A stretch of DNA of 64,000 nucleotides, taken from contig NZ_JAIVAE010000002.1 in NCBI RefSeq assembly GCF_020171785.1, positions 62,001-126,000 of the forward strand, given 5' to 3'. Source of the stretch: Guptibacillus hwajinpoensis (GTDB taxonomy: Bacteria; Bacillota; Bacilli; Bacillales; Guptibacillaceae). The translations under genes were made by a program, and so were the position numbers. The notes below the pieces were generated by a model, which saw only the letters and a program-made list of their open reading frames with translations, did not search any database and was not told the origin of the DNA. Within the stretch, counting starts at the first letter, position 1. Every line of letters starts with the position of its first letter. Shown here one piece after another: positions 31,811 to 59,510 of this stretch.

Positions 31811-31930
31811 GAAAAGCGGAAGTGGGCGTTTAGACACGGCAGGCACTGGAACCCTATAACATGAACACGTTCTTTGTGTTCGAGTTATAGGGTGAAGTGA
31901 CCGAGTGTCTGCCCACTGCAGCTAGATCAA
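31811..31930 (+). repeat. 120-bp covarying palindromic element, copy A
   Basis: Begins 3 bp after the gnd stop with GAAAAGCGGA. Nested stems: AGTGGGC/GCCCACT, AGACAC/GTGTCT, CACT/AGTG, CCCTATAAC/GTTATAGGG and GAACAC/GTGTTC with loop GTTCTTT. The unpaired GGA and TGAA and the closing GCAGCTAG are conserved in the other copies. A truncated second unit (GAAAAGCGGAAGTGGGCGT) follows at 31931-31949. Confidence 0.85.
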
Positions 31931-31985
31931 GAAAAGCGGAAGTGGGCGTATAGTAGTCCAGGTCTTTGAATCTTTAGTTCGCTAA

Positions 31986-32039
31986 ATAAAAAAAACGCTA
32001 CTCACTTCTGTTATGATAGGGAAGTGAGTAGCGTTTTTT
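31986..32039. terminator. Terminator between gnd and the convergent membrane gene
   Basis: A 17-bp stem AAAACGCTACTCACTTC / GAAGTGAGTAGCGTTTT with a 12-nt loop and A/T tracts on both sides. Confidence 0.9.
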
Positions 32040-32043
32040 ATAA

Positions 32044-32616
32044 CTAAGCTTTATGGGTAAAATCATAATAAACTTTTTTTCCGAACTGAACGACTTGAAG
32101 GAAACAACCAATCACAATCACAAAAAAGCTCACGTAAATTAATGACCATTTGATTGATGTAAAGAACGGAGCACACCAGCCGATAAATGAGAGCGTCTGA
32201 GGATAGAAATACATGATGAGAGAAGTTGCAATGTTCTCTAAATAGTCGAAAATAACACCCAATGAAGGAAGCAGACTTATAAACAACCATTTCCCATTCG
32301 TTACAGAGCGATATAATATCGTTAAGGTTGCTATTAAAAAGAACCAGTATACAATAGGCCAGATGAGATCGAAGGTAAAGCGCTCTTTAATATAATAGCT
32401 TCTCCCAGCTTCTCCATAAGCTTCTGCAACCTCATAGAGCTTCTCAGGAGTGTAGAAGAATGAGCCATCAGGGGATTGAGTCGTTTGGGTAACCTCATAA
32501 GATTTGTTTGAGACTTGAGGGAGGACGAAGGTAAGGAAGAGCGCAAAAATAACGACAGAAATGAACCAGATTGTTAGCGTTAGACGAGAACGAAGCTTTA
32601 GAAATAGGGATTTCAT
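32044..32616 (-). CDS. Hypothetical four- to five-helix membrane protein
   Basis: A 190-aa protein with TM segments at about 14-35, 88-106, 115-135, 140-160 and 165-185. An extracytoplasmic loop of about 50 residues (FFYTPEKLYEVAEAYGEAGR) follows TM1. The ATG at 32616 follows GTGGAGG; the GTG-started longer frame begins inside that ribosome site. I do not recognise the family. It is transcribed alone. Confidence 0.65.
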   Translation of the reverse strand: MKSLFLKLRSRLTLTIWFISVVIFALFLTFVLPQVSNKSYEVTQTTQSPDGSFFYTPEKLYEVAEAYGEAGRSYYIKERFTFDLIWPIVYWFFLIATLTILYRSVTNGKWLFISLLPSLGVIFDYLENIATSLIMYFYPQTLSFIGWCAPFFTSIKWSLIYVSFFVIVIGCFLQVVQFGKKVYYDFTHKA

Positions 32617-32663
32617 CTTTACCTCCACTCGTTTTTTGGGATGATCATCTCGAGATAGAATGA

Positions 32664-32685
32664 AAGCCAGGGAAAACCCTGGCTT
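32664..32685 (-). terminator. Terminator of the cyclase-family gene
   Basis: A 9-bp stem AAGCCAGGG / CCCTGGCTT with an AAAA loop; only a short T run follows on the minus strand. Confidence 0.6.
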
Positions 32686-32693
32686 ATGAAATC

Positions 32694-33317
32694 TTACACT
32701 TCTTTTAATCCTTCAAACAATAACACGCGAGCGGGCGATGCATCTGTCCCCTGAAGCTTTAAAGGTGCAGCCACCATGAAGTATTCTCCAGCTGCCACGT
32801 CTTTTAGACGTAAGCCTTCCATGATAATCACATCTTTTTCGAATAAAGAGCGGTGTGTAGGATGTTCTGGTTGGCTACGCTCAATGCCAAGACCATCTAC
32901 ACCAACGCCTCGAATGTTTCGCTCGGCAAGGTAGCGTGCTGCATCTTCACCTACGAAGACGAAGTCAAAATTAAATTCTTCCTCGAAAGAGTTTTGAGAT
33001 TTGAAAAGGATGAAGTCGCCTTCTTGAATGTCTTCAGATTCAATATCCTTATCAGAAATTGCCCCTTTAACATTTGTAACGTCAATTACTTTCGCTTTTC
33101 CAACAAGATCTTCTTGATTAATTGATTCAAACGTTGCTCCATCATTCATCATATGAAGCGGTGCATCTACGTGAGTCCCCGTATGTACATCGAGAGAAAG
33201 GCGAGACTCTGTGACGTGTCCATTTGTCGTCGTGTTGATTTCAGGTTGTTTTTCCTCTTTGTTCTTATAAACGGCCATACCATTAAAAATTGGTGCACTT
33301 ACATCATACATTTTCAT
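32694..33317 (-). CDS. Cyclase-family metal hydrolase (kynurenine formamidase-like)
   Basis: A 207-aa member of the cyclase/KynB family. The metal motif is present as LDVHTGTHVDAPLHMM, followed by the later HPTHRSLF and LRLKDVAAGEYFMVAAPLKL. Length and motifs match bacterial arylformamidases, which hydrolyse N-formylkynurenine, but no other kynurenine-pathway gene is nearby, so the substrate is open. The ATG at 33317 follows AAAGGAAG; the GTG three codons earlier is less likely. Confidence 0.82.
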   Translation of the reverse strand: MKMYDVSAPIFNGMAVYKNKEEKQPEINTTTNGHVTESRLSLDVHTGTHVDAPLHMMNDGATFESINQEDLVGKAKVIDVTNVKGAISDKDIESEDIQEGDFILFKSQNSFEEEFNFDFVFVGEDAARYLAERNIRGVGVDGLGIERSQPEHPTHRSLFEKDVIIMEGLRLKDVAAGEYFMVAAPLKLQGTDASPARVLLFEGLKEV

Positions 33318-33353
33318 AAAAAACACTTCCTTTCAACTAGTAGTGTATATGAT

Positions 33354-33387
33354 AAAGAAAGATACGTGAAGCACGTATCTTTCTTTT
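33354..33387. terminator. Terminator downstream of zwf
   Basis: Palindrome AAAGAAAGATACGTG / CACGTATCTTTCTTT with AAG loop. It lies beyond repeat copy B, so the element is within the zwf 3' untranslated region. Confidence 0.85.
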
Positions 33388-33425
33388 GTCATGATTATTT
33401 AGAATAAACGCTCGTCTTCGCTTTA

Positions 33426-33545
33426 CTGTGCTAGCTGCAGTGGCCAGGGTCTCGATCGCTTCACCACATCAAATGAACACAAAGGGCGTGTTCTTTTGAT
33501 GCGGCTCCAGCGCTTGTCGACCCTAAGCGGCCACTTCCGCTTTAC
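33426..33545 (-). repeat. 120-bp covarying palindromic element, copy B
   Basis: Read on the minus strand it begins inside the zwf stop codon with GTAAAGCGGA. Stems: AGTGGCC/GGCCACT, AGGGTC/GACCCT, GCGCT/AGCG, CGCATCAAA/TTTGATGTG and GAACAC/GTGTTC. The closing GCAGCTAG is kept. Confidence 0.85.
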
Positions 33546-35035
33546 TCTTTTGGTAATGGCCACCAGTGGAGGTTGTCTTTTTCTAGAAGCTCATCTGCCG
33601 CTTTTGGTCCCATTGAACCTGCTGGGTAGTTCGGGAAGTCTTTTTCTTTCTCGTTTGCCCATGTAACGGAAATTGGGTCAATGAACTGCCATGAGAGAGC
33701 AACTTCATCCCAGCGTGCAAAGTTTGTAGCATCACCGCGCATAACGTCGTGAAGGAGACGTTCATATGCTTCTGGTGAGTTCATATTGTTTTCTTGATTA
33801 TTGTTAAAGCTTAACTGGATTGGCGTTGTTTTTCGCATATCTCCTGAATCCTTCGCATTCAAGTGAAGCGTAATGCCTTCTTCAGGTTGAATATGAATCA
33901 CAAGAATGTTCGGTCCTAGTTTACCACTTTCATTTTTATAAAGATTCATTGGTAAGTCTTTAAACTCAATGAGAATCTTAGTAGATTTATTCGTCATGCG
34001 TTTACCAGTTCGAATATAGAATGGCACGCCAGCCCAGCGGAAGTTATCAATCATAAGTTTCGCCGCAACAAAGGTTTCCGTATTGGATTCTTCGTCAACG
34101 TTGTCTTCTTCGCGATATCCTGGCAGCGTTTCGCCATCAACCTCTCCTTCTTTGTATTGACCACGAACGAAGTAATCATTTACTTCTTCTGGTTTAACCG
34201 CTCGAAGGGAGCGAAGCACTTTCACCTTTTCACTACGAATTTCTTCTGTGGAAAGGCTAACAGGTGGTTCCATCGCAAGGAGAGAAACCATTTGTAGAAT
34301 GTGGTTTTGAACCATATCGCGTAGGGCACCGGACTTTTCATAGTATCCTCCGCGTGTTTCAACACCAACCGTTTCACTAGATGTGATTTGGATATTGGAA
34401 ATATGGCGACTGTTCCATAGCGGTTCGAACATAGAGTTGGCGAAACGAATGGCTTCTATGTTTTGGACCATTTCTTTTCCTAAGTAATGATCAATTCGAT
34501 AGACTTCATCTTCAGAGAAAACTTGGCGTATTTCATCATTCAGCTTTTGAGCTGATGGGAAGTTGTGTCCAAAAGGTTTTTCGATAACAAGACGGTTAAA
34601 GCCGTCTCCGTCAGTTAACCCTTCAGAATCCAAATTCAATGCAATTGTTCCAAAGAATTCTGGCGCCATCGCCATATAAAAGATGCGATTTCCTGGAATG
34701 TTGAATTTTTCATCAAGTGATTTAGCTAACTCATTTAATTCTTGATACGATTCTTTCTTTGTTACATCAAAAGGTTGATAGAAGAAGTGGCTGCTAAATT
34801 CTTCATGTTTGTCATCTTTATCCATGCATGCTGTATGTATAACAGAATCATGAACATTTGCACGAAATTCTTCATTAGATAGCTGTCTTCTTGCTACTCC
34901 TACTACAGCGAAATCCTCAGCAAGTACACCTTTGCAATAAAGGTTGTAGAGTGATGGGAATAGCTTGCGTTTAGCAAGATCTCCTGTTGCACCGAATATA
35001 ACGATAACAGAAGCCTGTTTTGATGGTTGATTCAT
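33542..35035 (-). CDS. zwf: Glucose-6-phosphate 1-dehydrogenase
   Basis: A 497-aa G6PD catalysing the NADP-linked first step of the oxidative pentose phosphate pathway. Motifs: IFGATGDLAKRKLFPSLYNL (dinucleotide loop), VIEKPFGHN, RIDHYLGKEMVQNIEAIRFA (catalytic His and substrate Lys) and RTGKRM. GTGAGG precedes the ATG. Together with gnd and rpiA in the same 6 kb it covers much of the pathway. Its stop codon is shared with the start of repeat copy B. Confidence 0.96.
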   Translation of the reverse strand: MNQPSKQASVIVIFGATGDLAKRKLFPSLYNLYCKGVLAEDFAVVGVARRQLSNEEFRANVHDSVIHTACMDKDDKHEEFSSHFFYQPFDVTKKESYQELNELAKSLDEKFNIPGNRIFYMAMAPEFFGTIALNLDSEGLTDGDGFNRLVIEKPFGHNFPSAQKLNDEIRQVFSEDEVYRIDHYLGKEMVQNIEAIRFANSMFEPLWNSRHISNIQITSSETVGVETRGGYYEKSGALRDMVQNHILQMVSLLAMEPPVSLSTEEIRSEKVKVLRSLRAVKPEEVNDYFVRGQYKEGEVDGETLPGYREEDNVDEESNTETFVAAKLMIDNFRWAGVPFYIRTGKRMTNKSTKILIEFKDLPMNLYKNESGKLGPNILVIHIQPEEGITLHLNAKDSGDMRKTTPIQLSFNNNQENNMNSPEAYERLLHDVMRGDATNFARWDEVALSWQFIDPISVTWANEKEKDFPNYPAGSMGPKAADELLEKDNLHWWPLPKE

Positions 35036-35425
35036 CTTTGTGACCTCACTTTTTCATTATTGCTGTTCCAGAGGGAACGTATGGACGGAACAGTGAATTC
35101 CCTACTTCGTTAGTAAAGATAAGACTAATCAAATGTTGATCAGATGATATCGATCCCGTAACAGAACAAGTTACTGGGTTCCCAAGTAAAAATTTTATAG
35201 CTTTTTCGCGCTAAAATCAAATCGTGTGATTGGGTATCAGCCTGAATTTTTAATATTAAATCGACTAATTGAAAACTGTAAGCGATGCCATGATTAGTAC
35301 CTTGGGAAAAGGTTCTTAGTGACATACAAACGGAAAATGATAAACTTTTTCCTAAGAGATAGAATGGTTGCATTCAATTGTGGCGAATATAATAGATATG
35401 AGCGTTAATAGGGAGGATGAATAAG
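35036..35425. other. zwf upstream region
   Basis: No supported gene. CTGTTCC (35063-35069) and GGAACAG (35087-35093), with an inner GTTCC/GGGAAC overlap, form alternative stems in the zwf leader. A TATAAT box at 35388-35393 is the likely -10 for the lipoprotein gene; its -35 is poor. Confidence 0.4.
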
Positions 35426-36040
35426 ATGATTCGAGTACTGACAATCTTCTTCCTGTTTTTTGGCATTATTCTAGGATGTGCAATTGAAAAGCCACAAAAT
35501 TTAGGCGAGGTAGAAGCCGATCGTCCAGCATCTGTACAAAGCATTGTTATGAAGAAAGCGTATCTCGTTTTAAATGCATTAAGTAAACAAGAGATGGACA
35601 AAGTCTCTCGTCATGTTCATCCACAAAAAGGAGTACTGCTTTCTCCATTTGGAACAGTTGATAAAAATCGTGCCCAGGTATTGATGCCTTCTCAAGTGAA
35701 AGAGTTATTCCAGGTACCCAATCAAAAGCAGCTTGAATGGGGGACGGATGACGTTAAAGGAGATCCTATTCGACTAACACCTCAAGCATATTTTGAGAAA
35801 TATGTTTATGATGTCGAATTTACTGAGACTGAGTTAGTTACGTACGATGGGATATATAAAGAGACAAATCGCGTTAATAATATAGATGAAGCTTTGCCGA
35901 ATAGCCATTATGTTGAGTTCTTTGTACCCGGATCAGAAGAACATGGAGGAATGGATTGGAAGAGTCTTAAATTGGTGTTTTCTGAACATAATAATGATCA
36001 CTATTTAATAGGGATTGTTCATGACCAGTGGTCGCCTTAA
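35426..36040 (+). CDS. Hypothetical lipoprotein
   Basis: A 204-aa protein with a lipoprotein signal peptide (hydrophobic 4-17, lipobox IILGC). The mature part has a segment HPQKGVLLSPFGTVDKNRAQ near 60-80, which recalls a family of Bacillus lipoproteins of unknown role, and a beta-rich end. GGGAGG directly touches the first ATG, so the second ATG (35426) at proper spacing is chosen. Membrane-anchored on the outer face. Confidence 0.72.
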   Translation: MIRVLTIFFLFFGIILGCAIEKPQNLGEVEADRPASVQSIVMKKAYLVLNALSKQEMDKVSRHVHPQKGVLLSPFGTVDKNRAQVLMPSQVKELFQVPNQKQLEWGTDDVKGDPIRLTPQAYFEKYVYDVEFTETELVTYDGIYKETNRVNNIDEALPNSHYVEFFVPGSEEHGGMDWKSLKLVFSEHNNDHYLIGIVHDQWSP

Positions 36041-36075
36041 TGTGAACAAAACGTGTCACGAATTGGAATTTTACG

Positions 36076-36091
36076 TGTGAGATGTGTCACA
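36076..36091. promoter_or_regulatory. Fnr/Crp-type box upstream of ctaM
   Basis: TGTGA-GATGTG-TCACA is an exact TGTGA-N6-TCACA palindrome, the consensus bound by Fnr in Bacillus. It is centred about 12 bp upstream of the -35 hexamer, a position suited to activation. Confidence 0.5.
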
Positions 36092-36095
36092 TAGG

Positions 36096-36124
36096 TTGCT
36101 CATTTAGAGAAACTTTCTTATCCT
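36096..36124 (+). promoter_or_regulatory. Promoter of ctaM
   Basis: TTGCTC and TATCCT with a 17-bp spacer, predicted start near 36131. Confidence 0.55.
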
Positions 36125-36161
36125 TAAAAGGTAGATTAATGTGATAAGGAGAAGAATTCGT

Positions 36162-36692
36162 ATGAGTGATGTAAAACAACGGAATTATACACCATGGATC
36201 GTCGGGCTTTCCATTGCAGTTAACGTGCTCGTTGTTATTCTGTTTTTCTTACCCGAATATAGCGGTGAGGTAGGATTCGATATTACACTTTTGCCTTTGC
36301 TTAACGCAGTTTTTAATAGCTTTACTTTTGTTTTCTTAGTAGCTGCGCTGATTTTTATTAAGCAAAAGAATATTAAGTTGCACAAACGTTTTATTTTTGC
36401 TGCTTTTTCAACGACAGCATTATTTTTAGTGTCTTACGTAACGTATCACGGGTTGTCTGAATCAACTTCTTTTGGAGGAGAAGGGTTCATTCGCTCCGTC
36501 TATTTCTTTATATTGATTTCACATATTATCCTTGCGGCTGCGATTGTTCCTCTTGCTTTAATCACAGTGACACGAGGTCTTAATATGCAAGTTGCCAAAC
36601 ATAGAAAAATTGCAAGATGGACGATGCCGATCTGGTTGTATGTGAGCCTGACAGGTGTTGTCGTTTATTTGATGATTTCTCCGTACTATTGA
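36162..36692 (+). CDS. ctaM: DUF420 membrane protein (CtaM/YozB-like)
   Basis: A 176-aa integral membrane protein with about five TM helices, matching YozB in length and pattern (FNSFTFVFLVAALIFIKQKN, KLHKRFIFAAFSTTALFLVS with the conserved His, SHIILAAAIVPLALITVTRG with His, KHRKIARWTMPIWLYVSLTG). DUF420/CtaM is needed for function of haem-copper quinol or cytochrome oxidases in Gram-positives. The ATG follows AAGGAG. An Fnr/Crp-type palindrome ahead of the promoter suggests coupling to oxygen or redox state. Confidence 0.84.
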   Translation: MSDVKQRNYTPWIVGLSIAVNVLVVILFFLPEYSGEVGFDITLLPLLNAVFNSFTFVFLVAALIFIKQKNIKLHKRFIFAAFSTTALFLVSYVTYHGLSESTSFGGEGFIRSVYFFILISHIILAAAIVPLALITVTRGLNMQVAKHRKIARWTMPIWLYVSLTGVVVYLMISPYY

Positions 36693-36697
36693 TAGGT

Positions 36698-36727
36698 TAA
36701 AAAAACAGGCGTTTGCCTGTTTTTTTA
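36698..36727 (+). terminator. Terminator after ctaM
   Basis: Stem AAAAAAACAGGC / GCCTGTTTTTTT, GTTT loop. Confidence 0.9.
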
Positions 36728-36854
36728 TTTGCATGAGTGGCTGCATCCGCTGGAGAAGTTGTGGAGAGACTACCGATATGTGAATGGCTGTGGCATATCC
36801 TCTCATCTTATGCTACTTTTGATAGTGAACGTATTTATTCAAGGAGGTACGATT

Positions 36855-37565
36855 ATGAGTGTTCATATTGGTGCGAAACAAGGAGATATTGCGGAAACAA
36901 TTTTATTACCCGGAGATCCGCTTCGTGCGAAGTACATTGCAGAAACGTTCTTAGAAGACGTTGTCTGCTATAACGAAGTAAGAGGAATGCTTGGATACAC
37001 TGGTACATATAAAGGGGAACGAATTTCTGTTCAGGGAACCGGCATGGGCGTGCCGTCGATTTCCATCTACGTGAATGAGCTTATTCAAAGCTATGGCGTA
37101 AAGAATTTGATTCGAGTTGGCACATGTGGCGCATTGAAGAAAGAAGTGAAAGTAAGAGACGTTATTCTTGCGATGAGTGCCACTTCTGATTCTGGAGTAA
37201 ACCGTCTTCAATTTAATGGCATGGACTTTGCCCCAACAGCTGATTTTAACCTTCTAAAAAATGCTTATGATGCTGCAGCCGAAAAAGAAATGAGTGTTCA
37301 TGTCGGGAATGTGTTTACAAGTGATTCTTTCTATCGTGACAACCCGGAAATCTTCCAACAGCTTGCTGACTATCAAGTGCTAGGTGTCGAAATGGAAACT
37401 TCCGCTCTTTATACGATCGCAGCAAAATACGGCGTGAATGCATTGACCGTACTGACTGTTAGTGATCACATTGTAACGGGTGAAGAAACGACTTCTGAAG
37501 AGCGTCAAACAACGTTTAAAGAAATGATGATTATTGCTCTAGAAGCGGCTTTAAAACAAAAGTAA
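36855..37565 (+). CDS. deoD: Purine-nucleoside phosphorylase DeoD-type
   Basis: A 236-aa hexameric PNP that phosphorolyses purine (deoxy)nucleosides. Motifs: [18 protein letters not shown] (phosphate loop), [36 protein letters not shown] (ribose-binding MET) and the catalytic Asp in [10 protein letters not shown]. The ATG at 36855 has AAGGAGG; the longer upstream frame overlaps the preceding terminator region and is rejected. It works with the purine permeases of this window in salvage. Confidence 0.95.
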
Positions 37566-37571
37566 AACATG

Positions 37572-37605
37572 GAGAAGACGAGCGTAAAGCTGGTCTTCTT
37601 TTTTT
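37572..37605 (+). terminator. Terminator after deoD
   Basis: Stem AGAAGAC-AGC / GCT-GTCTTCT around a G-G mismatch, then T7. Confidence 0.78.
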
Positions 37606-37684
37606 GTTATTCTGAAGAGCCGATGCATATTTCTATTCACATCTCCAAAAGCTAGAACAAGAGGGTGCATGGGGGGTGAATAGG

Positions 37685-39151
37685 ATGAAAAGGAGAACGA
37701 CAAAGTTACTTCATAAGTTAAAAGAATTAAAGCAGGAAGCGGTAGAAAAAGATCATTCAGCTTCACTTCAGAAACAAGTTATCGAAAACTTTAGCGGCTG
37801 TGATGATCTCGTACAACGCACGTTTCCTGAATTAGATATAACAATTATTTATTTCTTACATATGGTTAACGAAAATTTACTTGAAATGGATTTGCTTGTT
37901 CCCATTTATCATGCATCAGATGAAACCAAGCTTCCATTCTTAAAAAGGTCTAACTTTCATAAAACCGATGATGAAAAGAAAGTAATCAATGGAATATTAA
38001 ATGGAGAAGCGGCAGTTTTTCACCAGGACCATGCTTACCTGATTAACATTTCTGGACCTAAGCAGCGAGAAATCCAACCTTCGGAAACGGAAACAACGAT
38101 TACAGGACCACATGAAGGATTTGTTGAAAGTAGCGAAATTAATCTTTCTATGATTCGAAGACGGGTGAAAAGCGCGCACTTGAAAATTAACGAAATTCCT
38201 GTCGGAGAAGTTTCGAAAGGGAGCGTCTTTGTTCTTCATATAAAAGGAATTGCTAATGATGAAGTTGTGGGTGACATGATTAATCGAATCGAGAAAATCG
38301 AGATTGACGCGGTGTACGATGCACATATGCTAACACAGCTAATTGAAGATCAGCCAAATGCGCTCTTTCCACAGTTTATGCTTCGAGAGCGACCCGATGC
38401 AATTGCTGCTGCGCTTGTTGAAGGGAAAATTGTGGTCGTAGTTGACGGTAGTCCCGCAGTCATCATCAGTCCTTCAAGTTTTTTTGACTTTTTTCAAACG
38501 GGTGATGACTATTATCAAAGATGGATTACTGGGACGGCAACAAGGTTGCTTCGATTTGGAGCTTTTATCATCACGATTGGGTTTACTGCTCTCTACGTTT
38601 CCGTTACAACTTTTCAATATGAAATGATTCCGCAATCGCTGTTAACAACGTTGGCAGGTTCAAGAAGTAAGGTGCCATTTAATCCTTTATACGAAGCGCT
38701 AATCATGGAAATTACCCTTGAGTTTTTACGTGAAGCAGGGGCCAGATTGCCAACGAAAGTTGGACAAACGATCGGTATCGTTGGGGGTATTGTTATCGGA
38801 CAAGCGGCAGTGCAAGCTGGAATTACTAGCAATGTTCTAATTATTGTTGTTGCCAGTTCTGCCATTACTTCATTTGTCGTCCCTAGTTATGTGATGAGTG
38901 CGAGTATTCGATTAGCGCGTTTTGGTTTAATTCTTTTAGCGGGACTCCTTGGTAATCTCGGAATCGTCATAGGAGTCATCCTTTTGGTAATCCACTTAAG
39001 TAGTTTAACGAGTGCGGGTGCACCTTACTTAGCTCCTCTATCTCCGTTCTTCCGCAAAGATTGGGTCGATTTTTTATTGCGAGCTCCCTATTCTTTAATG
39101 AAAACAAGGCCAGCTTTACCTAGAAGTTCTAATAAGAAAAGAAAGCAATAA
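37685..39151 (+). CDS. gerAA: GerA-family spore germination protein (A subunit)
   Basis: A 488-aa GerAA/GerKA-type subunit of a nutrient germinant receptor in the spore inner membrane. A hydrophilic N-terminal region of about 270 aa holds the ligand-related domains; the conserved RERPDAIAAALVEGKIVVVV precedes about five TM helices (about 280-460, with FNPLYEALIMEITLEFLREA and PTKVGQTIGIVGGIVIGQAA). The ATG at 37685 follows GGGGGGTGA. First gene of a three-gene operon, expected to be forespore-expressed (SigG), although I could not define that promoter. Which germinant it senses is unknown, so the gerA symbol denotes family only. Confidence 0.9.
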   Translation: MKRRTTKLLHKLKELKQEAVEKDHSASLQKQVIENFSGCDDLVQRTFPELDITIIYFLHMVNENLLEMDLLVPIYHASDETKLPFLKRSNFHKTDDEKKVINGILNGEAAVFHQDHAYLINISGPKQREIQPSETETTITGPHEGFVESSEINLSMIRRRVKSAHLKINEIPVGEVSKGSVFVLHIKGIANDEVVGDMINRIEKIEIDAVYDAHMLTQLIEDQPNALFPQFMLRERPDAIAAALVEGKIVVVVDGSPAVIISPSSFFDFFQTGDDYYQRWITGTATRLLRFGAFIITIGFTALYVSVTTFQYEMIPQSLLTTLAGSRSKVPFNPLYEALIMEITLEFLREAGARLPTKVGQTIGIVGGIVIGQAAVQAGITSNVLIIVVASSAITSFVVPSYVMSASIRLARFGLILLAGLLGNLGIVIGVILLVIHLSSLTSAGAPYLAPLSPFFRKDWVDFLLRAPYSLMKTRPALPRSSNKKRKQ

Positions 39152-39178
39152 GCAGCTAGAAGAAATTGAGGGATACTA

Positions 39179-43404: not shown

Positions 43405-43425
43405 GTGAATAGGAGGAGGAAATGA

Positions 43426-45264: not shown

Positions 45265-45265
45265 A

Positions 45266-47594: not shown

Positions 47595-47602
47595 TTTGAT
47601 GT

Positions 47603-49620: not shown

Positions 49621-49640
49621 AAGGGGAAGGGAGCTTAAAA

Positions 49641-50396: not shown

Positions 50397-50408
50397 GGGG
50401 GACCAAGT

Positions 50409-52648: not shown

Positions 52649-52719
52649 ACTTAACTGTTTAACGCGATGAATCGGAAAAGAAATGATTCGAAACTATATG
52701 AAAATTTCGTGATCTGTAG

Positions 52720-52821
52720 TATAGTAAAGAAACGCGATAGCTTGTGCCCACAAGTCTATCTCCTCAATTAACAGCTCTGTAAGCGAATGCTGGATTCGCT
52801 TACAGAGCTATTTTTTTTTTA
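52720..52821 (+). ncRNA. Candidate small RNA with two hairpins and terminator
   Basis: A TATAGT box (52720-52725) predicts a start near 52732. Then hairpin 1 is GATAG-CTTGTG / CACAAG-CTATC with a one-base bulge (52736-52760). A single-stranded linker follows, TCTCCTCAATTAAC, of which TCTCCTC is complementary to GAGGAGA ribosome sites. Hairpin 2 is a perfect 16-bp stem (AGCTCTGTAAGCGAAT / ATTCGCTTACAGAGCT) with T10, an intrinsic terminator. No open frame fits. The -35 is poor, so it could simply be the mntABCD terminator. Confidence 0.5.
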
Positions 52822-52869
52822 TAAAAGAGTAAGTTTCCTAATAATGGTTTGAAAAAAATGACCCTTTTA

Positions 52870-52895
52870 GATTGAAAGTAATCATTTTTGGGAAT
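52870..52895 (+). promoter_or_regulatory. Possible SigB promoter of the DUF1206 gene
   Basis: GATTGA and GGGAAT with a 14-bp spacer resemble the SigB pattern; the -35 is weak. Confidence 0.35.
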
Positions 52896-52941
52896 AGAGA
52901 GAGTGGATAAATGATCTGAGATGAATGGAAGGAGAATGGTG

Positions 52942-53781
52942 ATGGATACTGGGACAGCAGCAAAACACAAAGCAAAACAAGCGTCAAATGATGTAAAGCC
53001 CTGGATTAGAGGCCTTGCAAGAATGGGGTATGCAGCAAAAGGCGTTGTCTATTTAATTATAGGAATTCTAGCATTTCAGGCAGCGTTTGGTCCTGGAGGA
53101 AAAACAACGGACTCTAAAGGGGCTTTCGCAACGATTGCAGGAAAACCTTTTGGTGAAGCCCTTTTGTGGATTCTTATTGTAGGATTAATCGGTTACTCCG
53201 TTTGGAAAGGAATCCAGGCGATTAAAGATCCTGATAGTTATGGCAATGATACGAAAGGTATTTTAATACGAACAGGATTCTTTGGCGCTGGTGTCATTCA
53301 TTTATTCCTTGCGTATAACGCCGTTTCAATTATTACGAGAGCAGGTAGTTCATCTTCTGGTGGTAAACAATCAATGTCTGCTAAATTATTAGGCCAACCA
53401 TTTGGTCAGTGGGTTATTGGATTTATCGGCTTATGTTTTATAGGTTTTGGCGTTTATCAAGTAATTAGAGGGTATAAGAAATCATTTATGAAACAACTAA
53501 AGCAGTATGAAATGCATAACCAAGAAGAATGGTGGGGTAAGCGAGCTGGACAAATTGGTCTTGCAGCTCGAGGCGTTGTTTTTACTATGATGGGTGTGTT
53601 CTTTATTCAAACAGCAATTACAGCTAACCCTGATAAAACAAAAGGGCTTGATGGCGCACTGTCAGAACTAGCGAAACAACCATACGGCGCTATTCTGCTA
53701 GGATTAGTAGCTATTGGATTTATTGCTTACGGCATCTTTATGTTCGTTAAAGGGAAGAATAGAAGAATGAATTTTTCATAA
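52942..53781 (+). CDS. DUF1206-family membrane protein
   Basis: A 279-aa protein of three DUF1206 repeats, each two TM helices. The repeat signature is ARMGYAAKGVVYLIIGILAF, then RTGFFGAGVIHLFLAYNAV and RAGQIGLAARGVVFTMMGVF, each after a short basic helix, with interior GKPFGxxLL turns. The family is widespread and often stress-related, with no known activity. The ATG at 52942 follows AAGGAG by seven bases. A possible SigB promoter precedes it. Confidence 0.83.
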   Translation: MDTGTAAKHKAKQASNDVKPWIRGLARMGYAAKGVVYLIIGILAFQAAFGPGGKTTDSKGAFATIAGKPFGEALLWILIVGLIGYSVWKGIQAIKDPDSYGNDTKGILIRTGFFGAGVIHLFLAYNAVSIITRAGSSSSGGKQSMSAKLLGQPFGQWVIGFIGLCFIGFGVYQVIRGYKKSFMKQLKQYEMHNQEEWWGKRAGQIGLAARGVVFTMMGVFFIQTAITANPDKTKGLDGALSELAKQPYGAILLGLVAIGFIAYGIFMFVKGKNRRMNFS

Positions 53782-53802
53782 TCGCAACGATGTAAGAAGG
53801 TG

Positions 53803-54129
53803 ATGGAACTGAAAAACGTTACACTTGAAGAAACAAAAGAAGGAATTGAGCAGAATCGCCTGTACTTTTTGTACTTATATGGTACGAATTGTTCCGTGTG
53901 TCATGCACTGTTGCCTCAAGTAGAGGAAGTACTAAAGGATTTCCCACAAATTACGCGGGAAAAGCTCAATGTTCATGAAATTCCTGAAGCCGCTGGAGCT
54001 TTTTCGGTTTTTACAATCCCTGTTCTTTTGTTGTATGTTAATGGAAAAGAAAGCATTAGAGAAGCTAGGTTTGTTAACATCGAATCTTTTCGTTCTTCGC
54101 TTAATCGAATCGTAACATTGTTGGACTAG
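53803..54129 (+). CDS. Thioredoxin-family protein with CxxC
   Basis: A 108-aa thioredoxin fold: FLYLYGTNCSVCHALLPQVE holds the redox pair CSVC (instead of CGPC), and the cis-Pro region is FSVFTIPVLLLYVNGKE. It resembles B. subtilis YusE/YtpP-type small thioredoxins. The ribosome site AGAAGGTGAT overlaps the start, so the exact start is uncertain. No obvious partner gene. Confidence 0.82.
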   Translation: MELKNVTLEETKEGIEQNRLYFLYLYGTNCSVCHALLPQVEEVLKDFPQITREKLNVHEIPEAAGAFSVFTIPVLLLYVNGKESIREARFVNIESFRSSLNRIVTLLD

Positions 54130-54148
54130 AATCACTCATTTAGTGGTG

Positions 54149-54193
54149 CACCCCGAAAGTTAGAGTTGAAGACTAACTTTAGGGGTGTTTTTT
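54149..54193 (+). terminator. Terminator after the thioredoxin-like gene
   Basis: Stem CACCCC-AAAGTTAG / CTAACTTT-GGGGTG with single mismatch, then T6. It overlaps the first possible start of the next gene. Confidence 0.75.
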
Positions 54194-55667
54194 GTTTGAA
54201 AAAACATATACACTCGAATGGAAAATTCAGTATACTGAACATAACTCTTTTGGAAAGGAATTATGTGACAGTAGAATGAATCACGCGAAACAATTAACTT
54301 CAACCTCTGAAACTTCTCTTTTTATTATTTTATTAGTATTTAGTATTCTCACGTATATTTTCTTGTTTTTTTCTGTTATTGGAATCGTGATTATCGCACT
54401 ATTATGGTTGATTTCCTTTTTTAGCCATGGTCTTTTTCTTGGTCAAATTAGAAGTAATGGAGTGAAGATAACTGACAGCCAGTACCCTCAAATCCACCAA
54501 AAGGTTTGTGATCTATGTAAGGAAATGAATATTATTAAAATTCCAAGTGTTTATGTGGTGGAATCGGCAGGGATCTTAAATGCATTTGCGACGCGTTTGT
54601 TAGGTCGTAATTTTGTTGTACTCTATTCAGATATCTTTGAACTGATTGAAGAAGGTGCTGAGGATGAAGTGACATTTATTCTTGCTCATGAGCTCGCTCA
54701 TATTAAACGAAATCACATTTTAAAGCAAATCCTGCTTTTACCAGGTAATGTCGTTCCATTTCTAGGTTCAGCCTATTCTAGAGCATGTGAATATACATGT
54801 GATCGAATGGGCGCGTATTTCATAGAAAATGGAGAGCGTGCAGGGAACGGATTAATGATTCTTGCGGTAGGAAAGCGCTTATACCAAAGTGTGAACAAAG
54901 ATGCTTACATCGTGCAACTCCAAACTGAGAGAAGTTTTTTTGTGTGGTTAAGTGAACTGCTGTCGACGCATCCATCGCTACCTAAACGAATAGCTGCAGT
55001 AGAGACATTTATGAATATGCGGGAAGAAACGCATTTTCCTGCTCCTCGAAAGAAAATAGTTATTCTTTCACTAATCATTTTTCTTTTCTTTGTAGGTGGA
55101 GTTGGATCAGCGGTAGTTGCATCGGAAGTGATTATTCCGTCCCTTTCCTCAGTATTTGAGGAGGAAAGCGTGTTTGATGATGGGGAGGTTACCGACATTA
55201 CCCCACTTATGGAAGCCATTATGTCAGAAGGTGAAGTGGAATTTCAGTCGCTAATCTCAACCGTCAATCTGGAGGCAACGGATGCTGACGGTTGGAATGC
55301 ACTTCATTATGCTGCAGAATATCCGGAAGATGAAAAAATGCTTGAGACACTTCTGGAGCTTGGAATGAATCCTGATATAAAGGATGATTATGGTATGACC
55401 CCGCTCATGGTAGCAAGTCAAAATGGCTTTGTTTCTAAAGTTGAGCTTCTACTCGGGGCTGGAGCAGATCCAAATCTTGAAGATCAGGAAGGGTGGACCC
55501 CGCTTATTTATACCGCTTACATGGAGCCAACCAATCGATACAATCTTTATAAAGTGCTTCTTGCAGCTGGTGGGGACCCTTTAAAGAAAGATGAAGCAGG
55601 TTATACTGCAATTGACTATGCACGAGATGCAGGAAATGAAGCAGACGTTAAGTTGTTATCTCAATAA
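54192..55667 (+). CDS. M48 metalloprotease fused to ankyrin repeats
   Basis: A 491-aa (or 463-aa) protein. Two TM helices at about 42-78, then an M48 zinc protease domain with HELAH (His166, Glu167, His170) and the third ligand Glu200 in ACEYTCDRMG. A further TM helix lies at about 287-312, then an acidic linker and four ankyrin repeats (about 335-490, e.g. DGWNALHYAAEYPEDEKML, YGMTPLMVASQNGFVSKVEL). The TTG at 54192 lies in a terminator, so ATG 54276 is a plausible true start. If both TM hairpin and TM3 hold, the ankyrins face outside the cell. Target unknown. Confidence 0.82.
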   Translation: MFEKTYTLEWKIQYTEHNSFGKELCDSRMNHAKQLTSTSETSLFIILLVFSILTYIFLFFSVIGIVIIALLWLISFFSHGLFLGQIRSNGVKITDSQYPQIHQKVCDLCKEMNIIKIPSVYVVESAGILNAFATRLLGRNFVVLYSDIFELIEEGAEDEVTFILAHELAHIKRNHILKQILLLPGNVVPFLGSAYSRACEYTCDRMGAYFIENGERAGNGLMILAVGKRLYQSVNKDAYIVQLQTERSFFVWLSELLSTHPSLPKRIAAVETFMNMREETHFPAPRKKIVILSLIIFLFFVGGVGSAVVASEVIIPSLSSVFEEESVFDDGEVTDITPLMEAIMSEGEVEFQSLISTVNLEATDADGWNALHYAAEYPEDEKMLETLLELGMNPDIKDDYGMTPLMVASQNGFVSKVELLLGAGADPNLEDQEGWTPLIYTAYMEPTNRYNLYKVLLAAGGDPLKKDEAGYTAIDYARDAGNEADVKLLSQ

Positions 55668-55732
55668 TGGAAAAGTCACAGGGTGTTGACCCCTTTTTAT
55701 GAAGTGACACTAATAGGAGAGGTGGAAGTAGA

Positions 55733-56230
55733 ATGGATGATTCTCAAGTGTTAAATCAATATACGTTTTGGCGCTATCGTACGATTCAAGCGCTGGATGC
55801 TGTCACAGAAGAACAAGCTGATTGTCTGCCGGAAGGTTTTACGAATACGGTTCGTTGGAATTTAGGGCATATTCTTGTGACGGCTGAATTTGCTTTAGAC
55901 CGCTTTACAGATAAGGAAAAAAGCCTGCCTGGAAATTACTCTCCGTTATTTAAAGCGGGAACTCGCCCACAGCAATGGGCGGAATCACCGCCTTCACTTG
56001 CAGAGATAAAATACTACTTATTAGAGCAAATTAACTGTATAAAGGAATTGGAAGGTAAACTTCACGATCCGCTTCAACATGAATTTTCAATAGGCTCTTA
56101 TTTGGAACTCGAGACAATTGGAGAACTTTTATTATTTCTTATGAATCATGAAAATCTTCATCTTGGAACAATTAGTGGCATAAAACGAGCCCAAGGTATA
56201 AAAGAACTTTGGAAAAAAGCATCTGTATGA
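55733..56230 (+). CDS. DinB-superfamily protein
   Basis: A 165-aa four-helix-bundle protein. The His triad of the DinB/YfiT fold appears as WNLGHILVTAEFALD and MNHENLHLGTISGIKRAQG. Members are metal-binding, some being bacillithiol-S-transferases. AGGAGAGG precedes the ATG. Partner substrates unknown. It is followed by a strong terminator. Confidence 0.85.
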   Translation: MDDSQVLNQYTFWRYRTIQALDAVTEEQADCLPEGFTNTVRWNLGHILVTAEFALDRFTDKEKSLPGNYSPLFKAGTRPQQWAESPPSLAEIKYYLLEQINCIKELEGKLHDPLQHEFSIGSYLELETIGELLLFLMNHENLHLGTISGIKRAQGIKELWKKASV

Positions 56231-56239
56231 GTACAGTCA

Positions 56240-56268
56240 AAAACGCGTGTGTTTCACGCGTTTTTTTG
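56240..56268 (+). terminator. Terminator after the dinB-like gene
   Basis: Stem AAACGCGTG / CACGCGTTT, loop TGTTT, T7. Confidence 0.88.
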
Positions 56269-56355
56269 TTTGGTTACAAAAAACGTCTTCTAAGGCAAGC
56301 TAAGACGCTAGGTATTTGTAAAAAACACAGGAATTTTAAATTTTCTAAAAAAAGG

Positions 56356-56385
56356 TTGAACACTTTTGAAAAGTTGTTATATAAT
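56356..56385 (+). promoter_or_regulatory. Promoter of the zinc-peptide/malate-synthase-like/aceA operon
   Basis: TTGAAC and TATAAT with an 18-bp spacer; predicted start near 56392. Confidence 0.72.
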
Positions 56386-56412
56386 ACTAACAAATAAAAC
56401 AAATTGTATTAT
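56381..56412. promoter_or_regulatory. Dyad at the aceA operon start
   Basis: ATAATAC (56381-56387) and GTATTAT (56406-56412) form an inverted repeat straddling the -10 and the predicted start, a good place for an operator. Confidence 0.4.
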
Positions 56413-56433
56413 AACAGATGGAGGGATTCAAAA

Positions 56434-56580
56434 ATGGATTGTTACACTTGTTATGGAAATGGTGAACTTGAATGTCCGCACTGTCATGGGAAAGAAAGAA
56501 AAAATGAAGGTTGTCACCACTGTGAGGGAGAAGGATGCGTTGGATGTCACCGCTGTAATAGTAGCGGTAGGCTTGAATAG
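56434..56580 (+). CDS. 48-aa CxxCxGxG zinc-ribbon protein
   Basis: A cysteine-rich protein with DnaJ-type elements: CYTCYGNGELEC, then CPHCHGKERK, CHHCEGEGC and CHRCNSSG. Eleven of 48 residues are Cys, enough for two zinc sites as in a DnaJ zinc-finger domain. GGAGGG precedes the ATG. It is the first gene of the operon with the malate-synthase-like gene and aceA, 11 bp before the next start. It is easily missed because a longer frame overlaps it in another phase. Function unknown; a chaperone or regulator of the downstream enzymes is possible. Confidence 0.72.
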   Translation: MDCYTCYGNGELECPHCHGKERKNEGCHHCEGEGCVGCHRCNSSGRLE

Positions 56581-56591
56581 GAGGGAAAGCT

Positions 56592-57614
56592 GTGCTTGAT
56601 GAAATTGTTGAAAGCGCTAACGTTCAAGGAAGTGACTTACTAACACATGAAGCGATGATGTTTCTAGAGAAGCTTCATCGTCGCTTTCATCAAGATCTAC
56701 ATCAGTTAGAAGAACAGCAAATATCGAATGGTCAACTTCTAATGGTAACAAAGGATATCAGAGAAGCTAGTTGGGAAGTAAAAGCTGTTCGTAAAGACCT
56801 TCAAGAGAGACGCGTCGTTCTCAAGAATTCGTCCTCTCCATTAGAGTCGTTACCTCAAAAATCTGGCGCCAATCTTTTTATAGCTGATTACTTTACAGAA
56901 TCGCTTTCTTTCACTGATCGTTTGATTGCACAGGAAAATCTGAAGTTGTTTATTCAAAAGAATTTTTTTCACACGGTTCAAAAACCAATTGCTGTAATGA
57001 TTACACCTTCTGACTGGAGAAGGAAAGATACGATTAATGGTTTGCAAATGTCAGCTAGTCTAGTAGATTTTGGTCTTTATGTTTTTCATCATACTGAGAC
57101 TTTAAAAAGAAATGGTTCAGCTCCATACCTTTGCTTAAAAGGGCTAGCGACTTACGAGGAAGCGAAGTGGTGGAATAACGTTCTTACTTATTTAGAAAGA
57201 GAAATGAATTTGACAGAAGGCACAATGAAAGCAACAATCACGATCACAATGGAAAATGTTCATCAAACAGAAGAAATGCTTTATGAACTACGTAACCATT
57301 GTGCGGGGATTCACTTGATAGAAGGAAACAGGGGGATAACGGACGTAGCAAGATCTGTTATTAGTATTGGACACAAGCGAAAAACCCACGTCATTAGTGA
57401 GGGTAGTGAAAAGAAAAGACAGGCGGATCTTTTCGAAACACTCACTCGAGAAGCGGTAGAAGGATTTGATGGTAAATGCGTCACAGACGCTAGTTTGATA
57501 CAGATGATAAAAGGCATTTGGAATCATTATATGCCTGAACCAAATCAAATCTGGAAAAAGCGAAATGAATATTTAAGTATATTGGCTGATTTGAACCAAA
57601 CAAAAATTGTCTAA
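56592..57614 (+). CDS. Degenerate malate synthase A homologue
   Basis: A 340-aa intact frame that aligns with malate synthase A (about 530 aa): LTHEAMMFLEKLHRRF near the N-terminus, ERRVVL, FIADYFTESLSF in place of FMADFEDS, LVDFGLYVFHH, WWNNVLTYLEREMNL, GTMKATITI, LYELRNHCAGI and GFDGK...MPEPNQI. The glyoxylate-binding Arg, the two Mg ligands (Glu of IET, Asp of GRWDY) and the catalytic-base Asp of MEDAATAEISR are all absent; the C-terminal 130 residues and an internal segment of about 45 are missing. Start GTG with GGAGGG upstream. Probably a pseudoenzyme or regulatory protein, not a working synthase. Confidence 0.72.
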   Translation: MLDEIVESANVQGSDLLTHEAMMFLEKLHRRFHQDLHQLEEQQISNGQLLMVTKDIREASWEVKAVRKDLQERRVVLKNSSSPLESLPQKSGANLFIADYFTESLSFTDRLIAQENLKLFIQKNFFHTVQKPIAVMITPSDWRRKDTINGLQMSASLVDFGLYVFHHTETLKRNGSAPYLCLKGLATYEEAKWWNNVLTYLEREMNLTEGTMKATITITMENVHQTEEMLYELRNHCAGIHLIEGNRGITDVARSVISIGHKRKTHVISEGSEKKRQADLFETLTREAVEGFDGKCVTDASLIQMIKGIWNHYMPEPNQIWKKRNEYLSILADLNQTKIV

Positions 57615-57640
57615 CTTAAAAAAATTAGGGGGAATTAATT

Positions 57641-58921
57641 ATGACAAAGCAAACGGCAGCATCACTTCAAGAAAATTGGAAGCAAGAACGTTTTAAAGGA
57701 ATCGAACGCCCATATTCACCTGAGGAAGTGTTGAGGTTGCAGGGATCCATTCAAATTGAGTACACCCTTGCAAAGAGAGGGTCAGAAAGATTATGGAAGC
57801 TCGTTAACGAAGAGGATTTTGTTAACGCGCTAGGTGCTCTTACTGGTAACCAGGCAGTTCAGCAGGTGAAAGCTGGCTTAAAAGCCATATACTTAAGCGG
57901 TTGGCAAGTAGCCGCAGATGCGAATGTATCAGGTCAAATGTATCCGGACCAAAGTTTGTATCCTGTAAACAGCGTACCACAAGTTGTGAAACGAATTAAT
58001 CAAGCGCTCCAACGAGCGGATCAAATTGAACATTCAGAGGGTATTCACGATCGGGATTGGTTTGTGCCAATTGTGGCAGATGCTGAAGCTGGTTTTGGTG
58101 GGGCGCTAAATGTTTTTGAACTTATGAAGTCCATGATTGAAGCCGGTGCAGCTGCTGTCCACTTTGAGGATCAACTTTCTTCAGAGAAGAAATGTGGTCA
58201 CCTTGGAGGAAAGGTTCTTCTTCCAACACAGCAGGCGGTGAAAAACTTAATTTCAGCACGTTTAGCAGCAGATGTGATGGGCGTACCAACCTTAATCATT
58301 GCGCGGACGGATGCGAATGCAGCCAACTTAATTACGAGCGATGTTGATAAATATGATGGTGAATTTTTAACAGGTGAACGCACACCTGAAGGCTTTTTCT
58401 ACACGAAACCAGGTCTTGATCAGGCGATTGCAAGAGGCCTTGCTTATGCGCCGTACGCTGATCTTATCTGGTGTGAAACGTCTGAACCTAATTTGGAAGA
58501 AGCTCAGAAATTCGCAAATGCTATACATGAGCGTTTCCCTGGAAAATTGCTAGCTTACAACTGTTCGCCTTCTTTTAACTGGAAAAAGAAGTTGGATGAT
58601 GAAACGATCGCTAAATTCCAACGCGAATTAGGTAAGATGGGCTATAAGTTCCAATTTGTTACACTTGCTGGTTTCCATGCGCTCAATCATAGCATGTTCG
58701 AACTTGCACGAGACTATAAGGATAATGGAATGGCAGCTTACTCAAGACTTCAGCAAGCAGAATTTGCTAGTGAGGCAGATGGTTACTCTGCTACAAGACA
58801 CCAGCGTGAGGTTGGAACAGGTTACTTTGATGCTGTATCACAGGTTATTACAGGAGGAACGTCTTCTACGACTGCTTTAAAAGGTTCAACGGAAGAAGAG
58901 CAGTTTACTTCAACGAAATAA
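57641..58921 (+). CDS. aceA: Isocitrate lyase
   Basis: A 426-aa isocitrate lyase, splitting isocitrate into glyoxylate and succinate. The catalytic KKCGH is at residues 183-187 (Cys185), with [28 protein letters not shown] and [10 protein letters not shown] matching the family. GGGGG precedes the ATG, 26 bp after the malate-synthase-like gene. The usual partner is malate synthase; here its partner is degenerate, so an active synthase must lie elsewhere or the lyase serves another route. Confidence 0.96.
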
Positions 58922-58926
58922 GAGAA

Positions 58927-58955
58927 AAAACCGGCTGAAATTCAGCCGGTTTTTG
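58927..58955. terminator. Terminator after aceA
   Basis: Stem AAAACCGGCTG / CAGCCGGTTTT with T5; it also faces the transcript of the selenoprotein-like gene. Confidence 0.9.
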
Positions 58956-59020
58956 TGTGGAACGCGTTTAAATAGAGAAAGCGGACTAGAAAACGGAAGG
59001 GTAATGAGGAAAAAACACTT

Positions 59021-59121
59021 ATTTCCGCGATCGTTCCAAGAATTCCGCGAAACGTGCTCATAATTCCGCTAAATTTCGAATATATCCGCGAAAATAGAAT
59101 TAATTCCGCGAAATTGGTTTT
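59021..59121. repeat. Phased 20-21 bp tandem repeat (five units)
   Basis: The core TTCCGCGA (or a one-base variant) starts at 59023, 59043, 59064, 59084 and 59104, spacing 20, 21, 20 and 20 bp, that is about two helical turns, so all cores face the same side. The next three bases are A/T-rich; the rest of each unit differs. No gene overlaps. Confidence 0.8.
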
Positions 59122-59150
59122 GGATCTCTCAGGGACGGCTTCCGCTTTTC

Positions 59151-59269
59151 TTGTCTAGCTGCGCGGGCCAAATCCTCCGGCTGTTTCGCCCTTTCGATTG
59201 AGACAAAAAGCGTCTCATTCGAAAGGGCTCCAACATCCTGCGGATTTAGGCAGGCCCGCTCCGCTTTTC
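59151..59269 (-). repeat. 119-bp covarying palindromic element, copy C
   Basis: Last (distal) copy of the tandem set. Stems read GCGGGCC/GGCCCGC, AAATCC/GGATTT, TGTT/AACA, CCCTTTCGA/TCGAAAGGG and GAGAC/GTCTC. Even the apical arm differs from the other copies yet pairs. Confidence 0.83.
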
Positions 59270-59390
59270 GTGAGATCCAGCTACGACTCGCAGAAACTGC
59301 GATATTTCACTCTTTCACCAGAACACAAAGGGCGTGTTCTAGTTCAAGCGCTCCAATATCTCCGTTTCTAAACGCTCGTCTCCGCTTTTC
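59270..59390 (-). repeat. 121-bp covarying palindromic element, copy D
   Basis: Middle copy. Stems AGAAAC/GTTTCT, ATATT/AATAT and GAACAC/GTGTTC are intact; the outer GACGAGC/GCGAGTC has tandem G.A mismatches and the fourth stem is weak, so this copy is the most decayed. Confidence 0.8.
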
Positions 59391-59509
59391 GTGTCTAGCT
59401 GCAGCGCCCAGACACTCGGTCACTTCACCTTTTCATCCGAACACAAAGACCGTGTTCAAATGAAAAGGCTCCAGTGCCTGCCGTGTCTAAACGGGCGCTT
59501 CCGCTTTTC
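59391..59509 (-). repeat. 119-bp covarying palindromic element, copy E
   Basis: Copy closest to the upstream gene; on the minus strand it begins 2 bp after the selenoprotein-like gene stop. Stems AGCGCCC/GGGCGCT, AGACAC/GTGTCT, CACT/AGTG, CCTTTTCAT/ATGAAAAGG and GAACAC/GTGTTC. Confidence 0.84.
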
Positions 59510-59510
59510 A

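Follow-up and report, generated by a model that had tools for sequence, protein, structure and literature searches.

When a palindromic element stands directly behind the stop codons of several genes and its arms differ by paired changes, is it an RNA acting in the 3' untranslated region (3'-UTR), or a repeat that keeps its fold for other reasons? This question is raised by a stretch of 64,000 nucleotides of Guptibacillus hwajinpoensis (assembly GCF_020171785.1, contig NZ_JAIVAE010000002.1, positions 62,001 to 126,000 of the forward strand; the whole stretch is called the window below), in which five copies, A to E, of an element of about 120 nt follow gnd, zwf and a selenoprotein-like gene. 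An initial annotation of the window had proposed a 3'-UTR RNA, an mRNA stabiliser or an element like the repetitive extragenic palindromes (REPs). In this study, we report that the copies belong to a family of repeats with a common fold, which occupy a defined slot at gene ends, form polar arrays, keep their sites while the contents change (at eight compared sites) and combine local heads with shared cores. The units are probably structured interspersed repeats resembling the bacterial interspersed mosaic elements (BIMEs) and BOX elements, in which recombination would exchange the units and selection would keep the fold.

Extent of the family

A covariance model (R1) was built from copies A-E alone and matches were taken at E up to 0.1. 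In the source genome, at least 85 matches at about 35 sites were found, a minimum given that scoring covered 150 of the 565 first-look candidates. A survey of 61 genomes (14 from the genus, 1 from the family and one from each of 46 other families of the order) gave R1 matches in 50, with at most 59 candidates scored per genome, so that copy numbers and some absences are lower bounds. A second model (R2), built from 64 diverse units, matched in 47 of 299 genomes sampled from the class, some of them outside the order; this is likewise a lower bound, with at most 12 candidates scored per genome. Units were also present in 7 of 80 named gnd neighbourhoods. The source genome is close to Pseudalkalibacillus, its Gnd being 99% identical to that of P. 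hwajinpoensis and of P. spartinae.

The Rfam comparison suggested in the initial annotation returned no matching family: Rfam 15 gave no match in the whole window at the family gathering cut-offs, and at E up to 5 the interval 59000-59600 gave only mir-553 (E 0.88, 19 bits against a cut-off of 82). No earlier account of the unit was found in Rfam or in the open-access literature, subscription papers lying outside the search. As we found no earlier description, this Bacillales-wide family of structured repeats is apparently undescribed, being set apart from Bhal-1, Bhal-2 and bcr1-bcr18 by descriptions only.

Structure and covariation of the unit

All five copies were verified in the sequence at the positions first assigned to them, with their heads, tails, stem-1 and stem-2 sequences. 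The unit, 118-123 nt long in 72 of 76 parsed units of the source genome, opens with the head GAAAAGCGGA, followed by stem 1 (7 pairs), a left bulge (mostly GTTT) and stem 2 (6 pairs). The interior consists of a small loop, a 4-pair helix, a GGA/GA loop and an apical stem with a conserved tip, and is closed by the right arms. The unit ends in the tail GNAGCTRG, with AGC/GCT pairing at the foot, and a linker of 3-8 nt leads to the next head. The stems are free in sequence but paired, and the left bulge and small internal loops are near-fixed in sequence.

A selected folded structure, as proposed for the five copies, was borne out by folding and by covariation in larger alignments of the genus, of other families and of held-out copies. 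The RNA folding z values of A to E were -8.0, -6.2, -6.3, -3.5 and -6.6, and none of 200 shuffles folded as well. In an alignment of 119 distinct units of the genus, 93.3% of cells were paired, two-sided changes occurred in 31 of 39 pairs, and the covariation score was 0.523, against 0.182 when shuffled and at most 0.114 with the partners slid. Among 60 distinct units, mostly of other families, 91.1% of cells were paired and 37 of 39 pairs showed two-sided changes, a figure reached by 1 of 500 shuffles; the covariation score of this set was reached by none. These two alignments were fitted to the covariance model. The third, of 36 copies from outside the window, was made by MAFFT without the model, and RNAalifold found in it a similar structure with 39 pairs, 29 of which had compensatory changes.

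Quasipalindrome correction, in which template switching perfects imperfect palindromes, would produce two-sided changes in one event with no function and no structural selection required. Such correction would also remove asymmetric loops, whereas in the 36 held-out copies both the left bulge and the loop GGA/GA are kept. The same structure also fits other families, and the stem types are common to different sites and reassort as pairs, which makes an artefact of this kind very unlikely as the source of the pattern.

Copy D does contain a weak stem, as first noticed, but this is not decay, since its stem 1 has a tandem G.A/A.G step that is typical of the GACGAGC type (32 of the 119 distinct units). 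A second inner layout, GACAAGCATAAGACG ... GGCTTATGACCTCGAG, was seen inside the same heads, outer stems and tails at L098, L108, L248 and further loci of other families, and in a related form at loci L056 and L062 of the source genome. A kink-turn in the GGA/GA loop was weighed by eye and dropped.

On the strand read in the initial annotation, G.T mismatches are frequent and A.C mismatches absent in four columns of the genus alignment, and recurrent columns across families hold 79 G.T against 4 A.C. The remaining wobble-type mismatches number 48 G.T and 33 A.C in the genus, and 48 G.T and 19 A.C across families, counts from a model-fitted alignment that leans toward G.T. As DNA, the same strand was more stable than its complement in the two units tried. 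This strand is therefore favoured as the one that folds, as RNA or as single-stranded DNA. For the recent changes within the genus, the sporadic mismatches suggest that RNA-level selection is weak.

Position relative to genes, terminators and rRNA

The neighbouring genes were compared at 73 places in three genomes of different families (the source genome, G023 and G040), where a simple hexamer scorer called a gene on both sides. G023 and G040 were represented by the best 25 of 94 and the best 20 of 81 matches, respectively, and three G023 intergenic regions holding two matches each were counted twice; L042, L043 and L075, with a gene on one side only, lie outside the 73, and L054, L059, L061 and L074 were not scored. 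Convergent genes flanked the unit at 25 places and divergent genes at 1; at 36 places both genes were antisense to it, and at 11 both were in sense orientation. The downstream gene thus reads toward the array at 61 of 73 places, and a sense gene lies upstream at 36 of 73. Where a sense gene lies upstream, the head starts at most 4 nt from the stop codon in 27 of 37 cases. The C-D-E array of the window is flush with a stop codon as well, yet it was scored at 265 because its upstream gene carries an in-frame TGA.

An A-run plus hairpin was found within 150 nt on the tail side of 14 of 28 source arrays, and its mirror image on the head side of none of the 28; in controls, it occurred in 4 of 112 segments taken at a distance and in 1 of 140 segments with shuffled letters. 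A laxer terminator rule over 260 nt was satisfied by 23 of 29 source arrays. The constant feature of the sites is therefore a slot between a gene end and a terminator, on the side of the terminator's T-tract.

These positions bear directly on the 3'-UTR role proposed at the outset, in which co-transcribed hairpins would block 3'-to-5' exonucleases or set the transcript end. The strong fold, the excess of G.T over A.C on the proposed strand and the heads lying flush with stop codons are what such an element would show. However, a sense RNA fails for most copies, as there is a sense gene upstream at only 36 of the 73 places. The common orientation with the upstream gene holds for the arrays of the window and is not a rule elsewhere, as the co-directional pairs comprise 36 antisense and 11 sense; orientation among the other copies is mixed, although their position is non-random. 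Relative to the leading strand, the units were antisense at 24 sites against 8 in G010 and at 20 against 7 in G023, among the matches listed (24 of 32 and 20 of 27), which also speaks against this role. The sites were grouped by hand, with the origin placed at dnaA and the terminus assumed opposite, and six single-unit G010 matches, all between 23S and 5S rRNA, were excluded. Transcription and replication bias are indistinguishable here, because the antisense ratio about equals that of genes. As a general role, a 3'-UTR RNA or stabiliser is unlikely and leaves most copies in the three genomes unexplained.

The units in the 23S-5S rRNA spacer do agree with it. They are in sense orientation and begin 4-5 nt past the 23S end in 10 of 10 sources from four genera (six G010 operons and one each of the source genome, G014, G057 and G027, picked as apparent rRNA spacers). 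This placement is the best support for constraint at the RNA level, or for a target at gene ends.

The orientation of the downstream genes could instead suggest that the units act on the complementary strand as terminator-like insulators, in which a hairpin followed by CTTTTC would stand behind the terminator of the convergent or antisense gene. The downstream gene facing the array at 61 of 73 places and the terminator on the tail side agree with this, and a terminator scan marked a weak terminator-like site at the foot of unit B and of unit E. Nevertheless, the T-run is just four long, G.T favours the opposite strand as the folded one, a regular terminator is already there at many sites, and the fast turnover described below is unexpected of insulators that are needed; we regard this role as highly improbable.

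Architecture and turnover of the arrays

The arrays are head-to-tail, and n units carry n+1 heads. A further head with a partial left arm, here termed the terminal half unit, was found in 30 of 31 source arrays (33 arrays, two of which are cut by contig ends), the sole array without one being L061, behind 23S rRNA. The terminal pieces measure 13-65 nt in 26 arrays, the other 4 having pieces of 71-121 nt. The sequence preceding the first head resembled unit tails at background level (score at most 6) in 27 of 30 arrays, the exceptions being L056, L057 (where the segmentation is our own) and L075 (at a contig start). The base before the head equals the flank in 43.5% of cases in the source genome, against 26.3% when shuffled (37 of 2000 shuffles as high), and in 45.3% in relatives, against 22.7% (0 of 2000), the two sets having orthologous sites in common.

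Units were also observed at five contig ends of the source assembly or no more than about 125 nt away from them (C1 end, C2 start, C8 end, C23 end and C24 start), that of C8 falling inside an rRNA operon. A short tandem motif with TTGGCCAAA at a spacing of about 20 nt, the third kind of motif seen, occurs at L054 (3134-3181) and past the array of L060; a strict pattern matches L054 only.

Eight sites were compared between the source genome and its near relatives G010, G009 and G007. Element sequence is kept at all eight, with 0 to 6 units that are mostly of other types, one G007 site being reduced to a half unit. The upstream flanks are 91-99% identical and the downstream flanks 92-98%, except for 80-82% at site A and 86% at C-D-E in G007. 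A same-site partner of at least 95% identity was found for 2 of 14 source units in G010, 4 of 14 in G009 and 1 of 9 in G007, and an equal or better match at another of the eight sites for 10 of 14, 11 of 14 and 7 of 9, respectively. Among the relatives themselves, the same-site figures were 2 of 27 (G010-G009), 7 of 19 (G010-G007) and 2 of 15 (G009-G007), and those for another site 21 of 27, 13 of 19 and 10 of 15. Some partners persist, as one C-D-E unit is identical between the source genome and G010. Such wholesale turnover between near relatives is a further point against an mRNA stabiliser.

The gnd site is empty in P. hwajinpoensis, P. spartinae, A. macyae and P. caeni, and the zwf site holds a half unit only in P. 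hwajinpoensis and P. spartinae. The C-D-E site holds an array in G006 (taken as P. hwajinpoensis) and a half unit only in G001 (taken as P. spartinae), while in G003 and G011 there is no element and the stop codon is directly followed by the terminator. Judged from these comparisons, lone half units look like scars of emptied arrays.

Within the units, outer and inner parts behave differently. In 135 parsed units, with the core taken as the first 7 nt, pairs of units with different cores had the same head in 58% of cases when both came from one array and in 35% when they came from different arrays; for the linker, the figures were 28% and 6% (reached by 0 of 300 permutations in both cases). 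Heads and linkers are therefore local, and cores are not. Across units, 20 stem-1 and 14 stem-2 sequences occur in 34 combinations, 12 of them recurring. Mispairing was flagged in 6 of 119 units (the tandem G.A step of the GACGAGC type not being counted), and L046 and L052 each contain one unit whose left half is of one type and whose right half is of another.

The polarity of the arrays raised retrotransposition, with one precise and one truncated end. This was set aside in favour of unit deletion: in the relatives, what lies to the right of the terminal half unit is inherited flank, and half units also stand alone as scars. Target-site duplication, suggested by the n+1 heads and the match of the base before the head, may have taken place, but local duplication predicts the same picture.

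A more elaborate possibility is that the units are gene-less cassettes. A putative recombinase would recognise the folded single strand by its bulge, loops and heads, cut at the heads and move units between fixed sites; the hairpins would then act as cargo-free, integron-like cassettes, and emptied arrays would leave half-unit scars. Bulge, loops and heads are indeed conserved while the stem sequence is free, n units have n+1 heads, contents are exchanged between fixed sites, and the base before the head equals the flank above chance. Integron attC sites are themselves imperfect palindromes of about 120 bp that keep structure over sequence and lie in arrays with fast-changing contents, a likeness to the Bacillales units; their core sites, GTTRRRY and RYYYAAC, lie at the two ends. 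The Bacillales arrays differ in having no gene cassettes and no core-site pair, which was absent from 119 of 119 distinct units on either strand, and identity with attC was rejected on this ground. As no enzyme was identified either, and local duplication plus conversion explains the uniform local heads and the varied cores no less well, a cassette system is improbable.

Search for a mover

REP-like elements moved by a Y1 transposase of the REP-associated tyrosine transposase (RAYT) kind were considered next, since the units are palindromic, intergenic and dispersed. Y1 transposases are present in 55 of 61 genomes, and the source genome has four Y1 genes, three of them long. Across the 61 genomes, however, their presence does not follow that of the units: units occur without a Y1 match in G026, G027 and G057, and Y1 occurs without an R1 match in G019, G036, G038 and G039. 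The four Y1 genes were taken with their surroundings as 6.4-kb stretches (L076-L079), which contained no R1 match; loose head or tail patterns in them were isolated, the closest cluster (L077) resembling coding sequence. Neither GTAG nor CGTC was found at the foot of any of the 119 distinct units. Of the three long Y1 genes, two have palindromic repeats of their own on either side, unrelated to the units (L076, 2634-2658 and 4873-4897; L077, 2401-2455 and 3770-3796). A REP/RAYT origin was ruled against by the presence and absence pattern, the lack of linkage, the missing foot tags and these other palindromes, and we give it hardly any credence.

Spread on phages or plasmids was also rejected, as both are nearly unit-free. 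Two unit queries had no match in phages, and in plasmids two queries had no match and a third gave two weak partial matches, to an Anoxybacillus plasmid and a Geobacillus plasmid. No mover and no host function was found for the units in this analysis.

Comparison with known repeats

REPs and BIMEs are intergenic palindromes in tandem or mosaic arrays, with proposed roles in termination and mRNA stability (PMC3733652). In a wide sense only, the REP-like nature first suggested was upheld, as the Bacillales units are also intergenic palindromic arrays that vary between close relatives, as in BIMEs. They differ in being about 120 nt long with nested stems, against 20-40 bp for REPs, and in having no GTAG/CGTC foot and no Y1/RAYT link.

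The pneumococcal BOX elements are modular and structured, vary between strains in the number of inner modules, are over-represented between convergent genes and were judged parasitic by their authors (PMC3049150). By description, BOX consists of boxA and boxC around boxB modules, whereas the Bacillales unit is a whole hairpin, and BOX is found in streptococci while the present units are order-wide.

In the Bacillus cereus group, bcr1-bcr18 are intergenic repeats, some of them structured, with about half of the copies transcribed (PMC3446304). Of these, bcr1 is termed a miniature inverted-repeat transposable element (MITE) with terminal inverted repeats (PMC3733652) and is set apart from the Bacillales unit on that description, not by sequence. 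The arms of the unit vary freely (20 stem-1 types), unlike fixed inverted repeats, although flanking direct repeats are present. In B. halodurans, Bhal-1 and Bhal-2 are intergenic stem-loop repeats of 74 and 76 nt with 36 and 50 copies, Bhal-2 being said to include clustered regularly interspaced short palindromic repeats (CRISPR) (PMC2267715). Both are shorter than the unit, by a comparison of descriptions only, and Bhal-1 could be part of it.

Proposed evolution of the repeat

Taken as BIME/BOX-like interspersed repeats of the chromosome, the units could evolve as follows. The heads form direct repeats on either side of each hairpin, and slippage or recombination across the folded hairpin would delete or duplicate whole units. 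Gene conversion between sites would swap the hairpin cores, selection on the folded single strand would purge mispaired hybrids, and arrays would at times collapse to a half-unit scar. New sites may arise rarely, through a putative mover, and the slot behind a terminator would persist since insertion there harms least. We infer from the sequence comparisons that recombination and hairpin slippage would be the motor and selection on the folded strand the keeper, with no dedicated host role. The units are expected to persist as selfish or near-neutral elements that affect transcript ends locally, rather than to have a dedicated regulatory role.

Several points weigh against this interpretation. 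Four of the 30 terminal pieces exceed 65 nt, and recombination and slippage are suggested indirectly, through comparison of genomes. The conserved fold would be compatible with a host RNA role too, as would the all-sense position, 4-5 nt past the end of 23S rRNA in four genera, and the sporadic excess of G.T over A.C across families (48:19) hints at RNA selection. The copies of the source genome, G009, G010 and G007 share sites and hence are not independent.

Copies and neighbouring features in the window

Array A consists of unit A on the plus strand (31811..31930), whose head begins 2 nt past the gnd stop codon and which was identified by sequence, folding, model match and gene context, and of a terminal half unit (head and left arm) at about 31931..31960 (plus strand; sequence and array parsing). 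On its tail side, sequence and a terminator scan revealed a terminator-like site of A-run, hairpin and T-run at 31988..32039 (strand unassigned). Unit B lies on the minus strand (33427..33545; sequence, folding and model match), its head overlapping the zwf stop codon (GTAAAGCGGA), and is followed by a terminal half unit at about 33405..33426 on the same strand (sequence and array parsing).

The third array is also on the minus strand. Its first unit, E (59391..59509), is flush with the stop of the selenoprotein-like gene and is followed by unit D (59270..59390), of the GACGAGC type with the tandem G.A step in stem 1, unit C (59151..59269; sequence, folding and model match) and a terminal half unit at about 59133..59150 (sequence and array parsing). 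The half unit that ends each of the three arrays was absent from the list in the initial annotation. A terminator-like hairpin on the minus strand (58926..58954) lies between the C-D-E array and the end of an isocitrate-lyase-like gene (57641-58921).

Upstream of this array, the selenoprotein-like frame occupies 59511-60248 on the minus strand and contains a single in-frame TGA in ...FALLVPSUPVCQQSAGLV.... A second short tandem motif, TTCCGCGAAA, with a spacing of about 20 nt, follows several arrays (59043-59113 in the window, and loci L049, L064, L067 and L075). With one mismatch allowed, it has 10 matches in the whole window against a mean of 5.7, which is not above chance, four of the matches lying within 71 nt.

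Conclusions

If the interpretation as an interspersed repeat is right, a common repeat of the Bacillales has stayed undescribed, and it would offer a natural system for the evolution of palindromes, in which nested stems are swapped pairwise without loss of the fold. Between genomes that mostly share more than 90% identity in the flanking genes, the contents of the arrays turn over, and the arrays would serve as a good typing marker. Given the units at five contig ends, short-read assemblies probably break at these arrays. The family also carries a caution: compensatory changes alone would suggest a regulatory RNA, whereas orientation, position and turnover indicate a repeat in a safe slot behind terminators.

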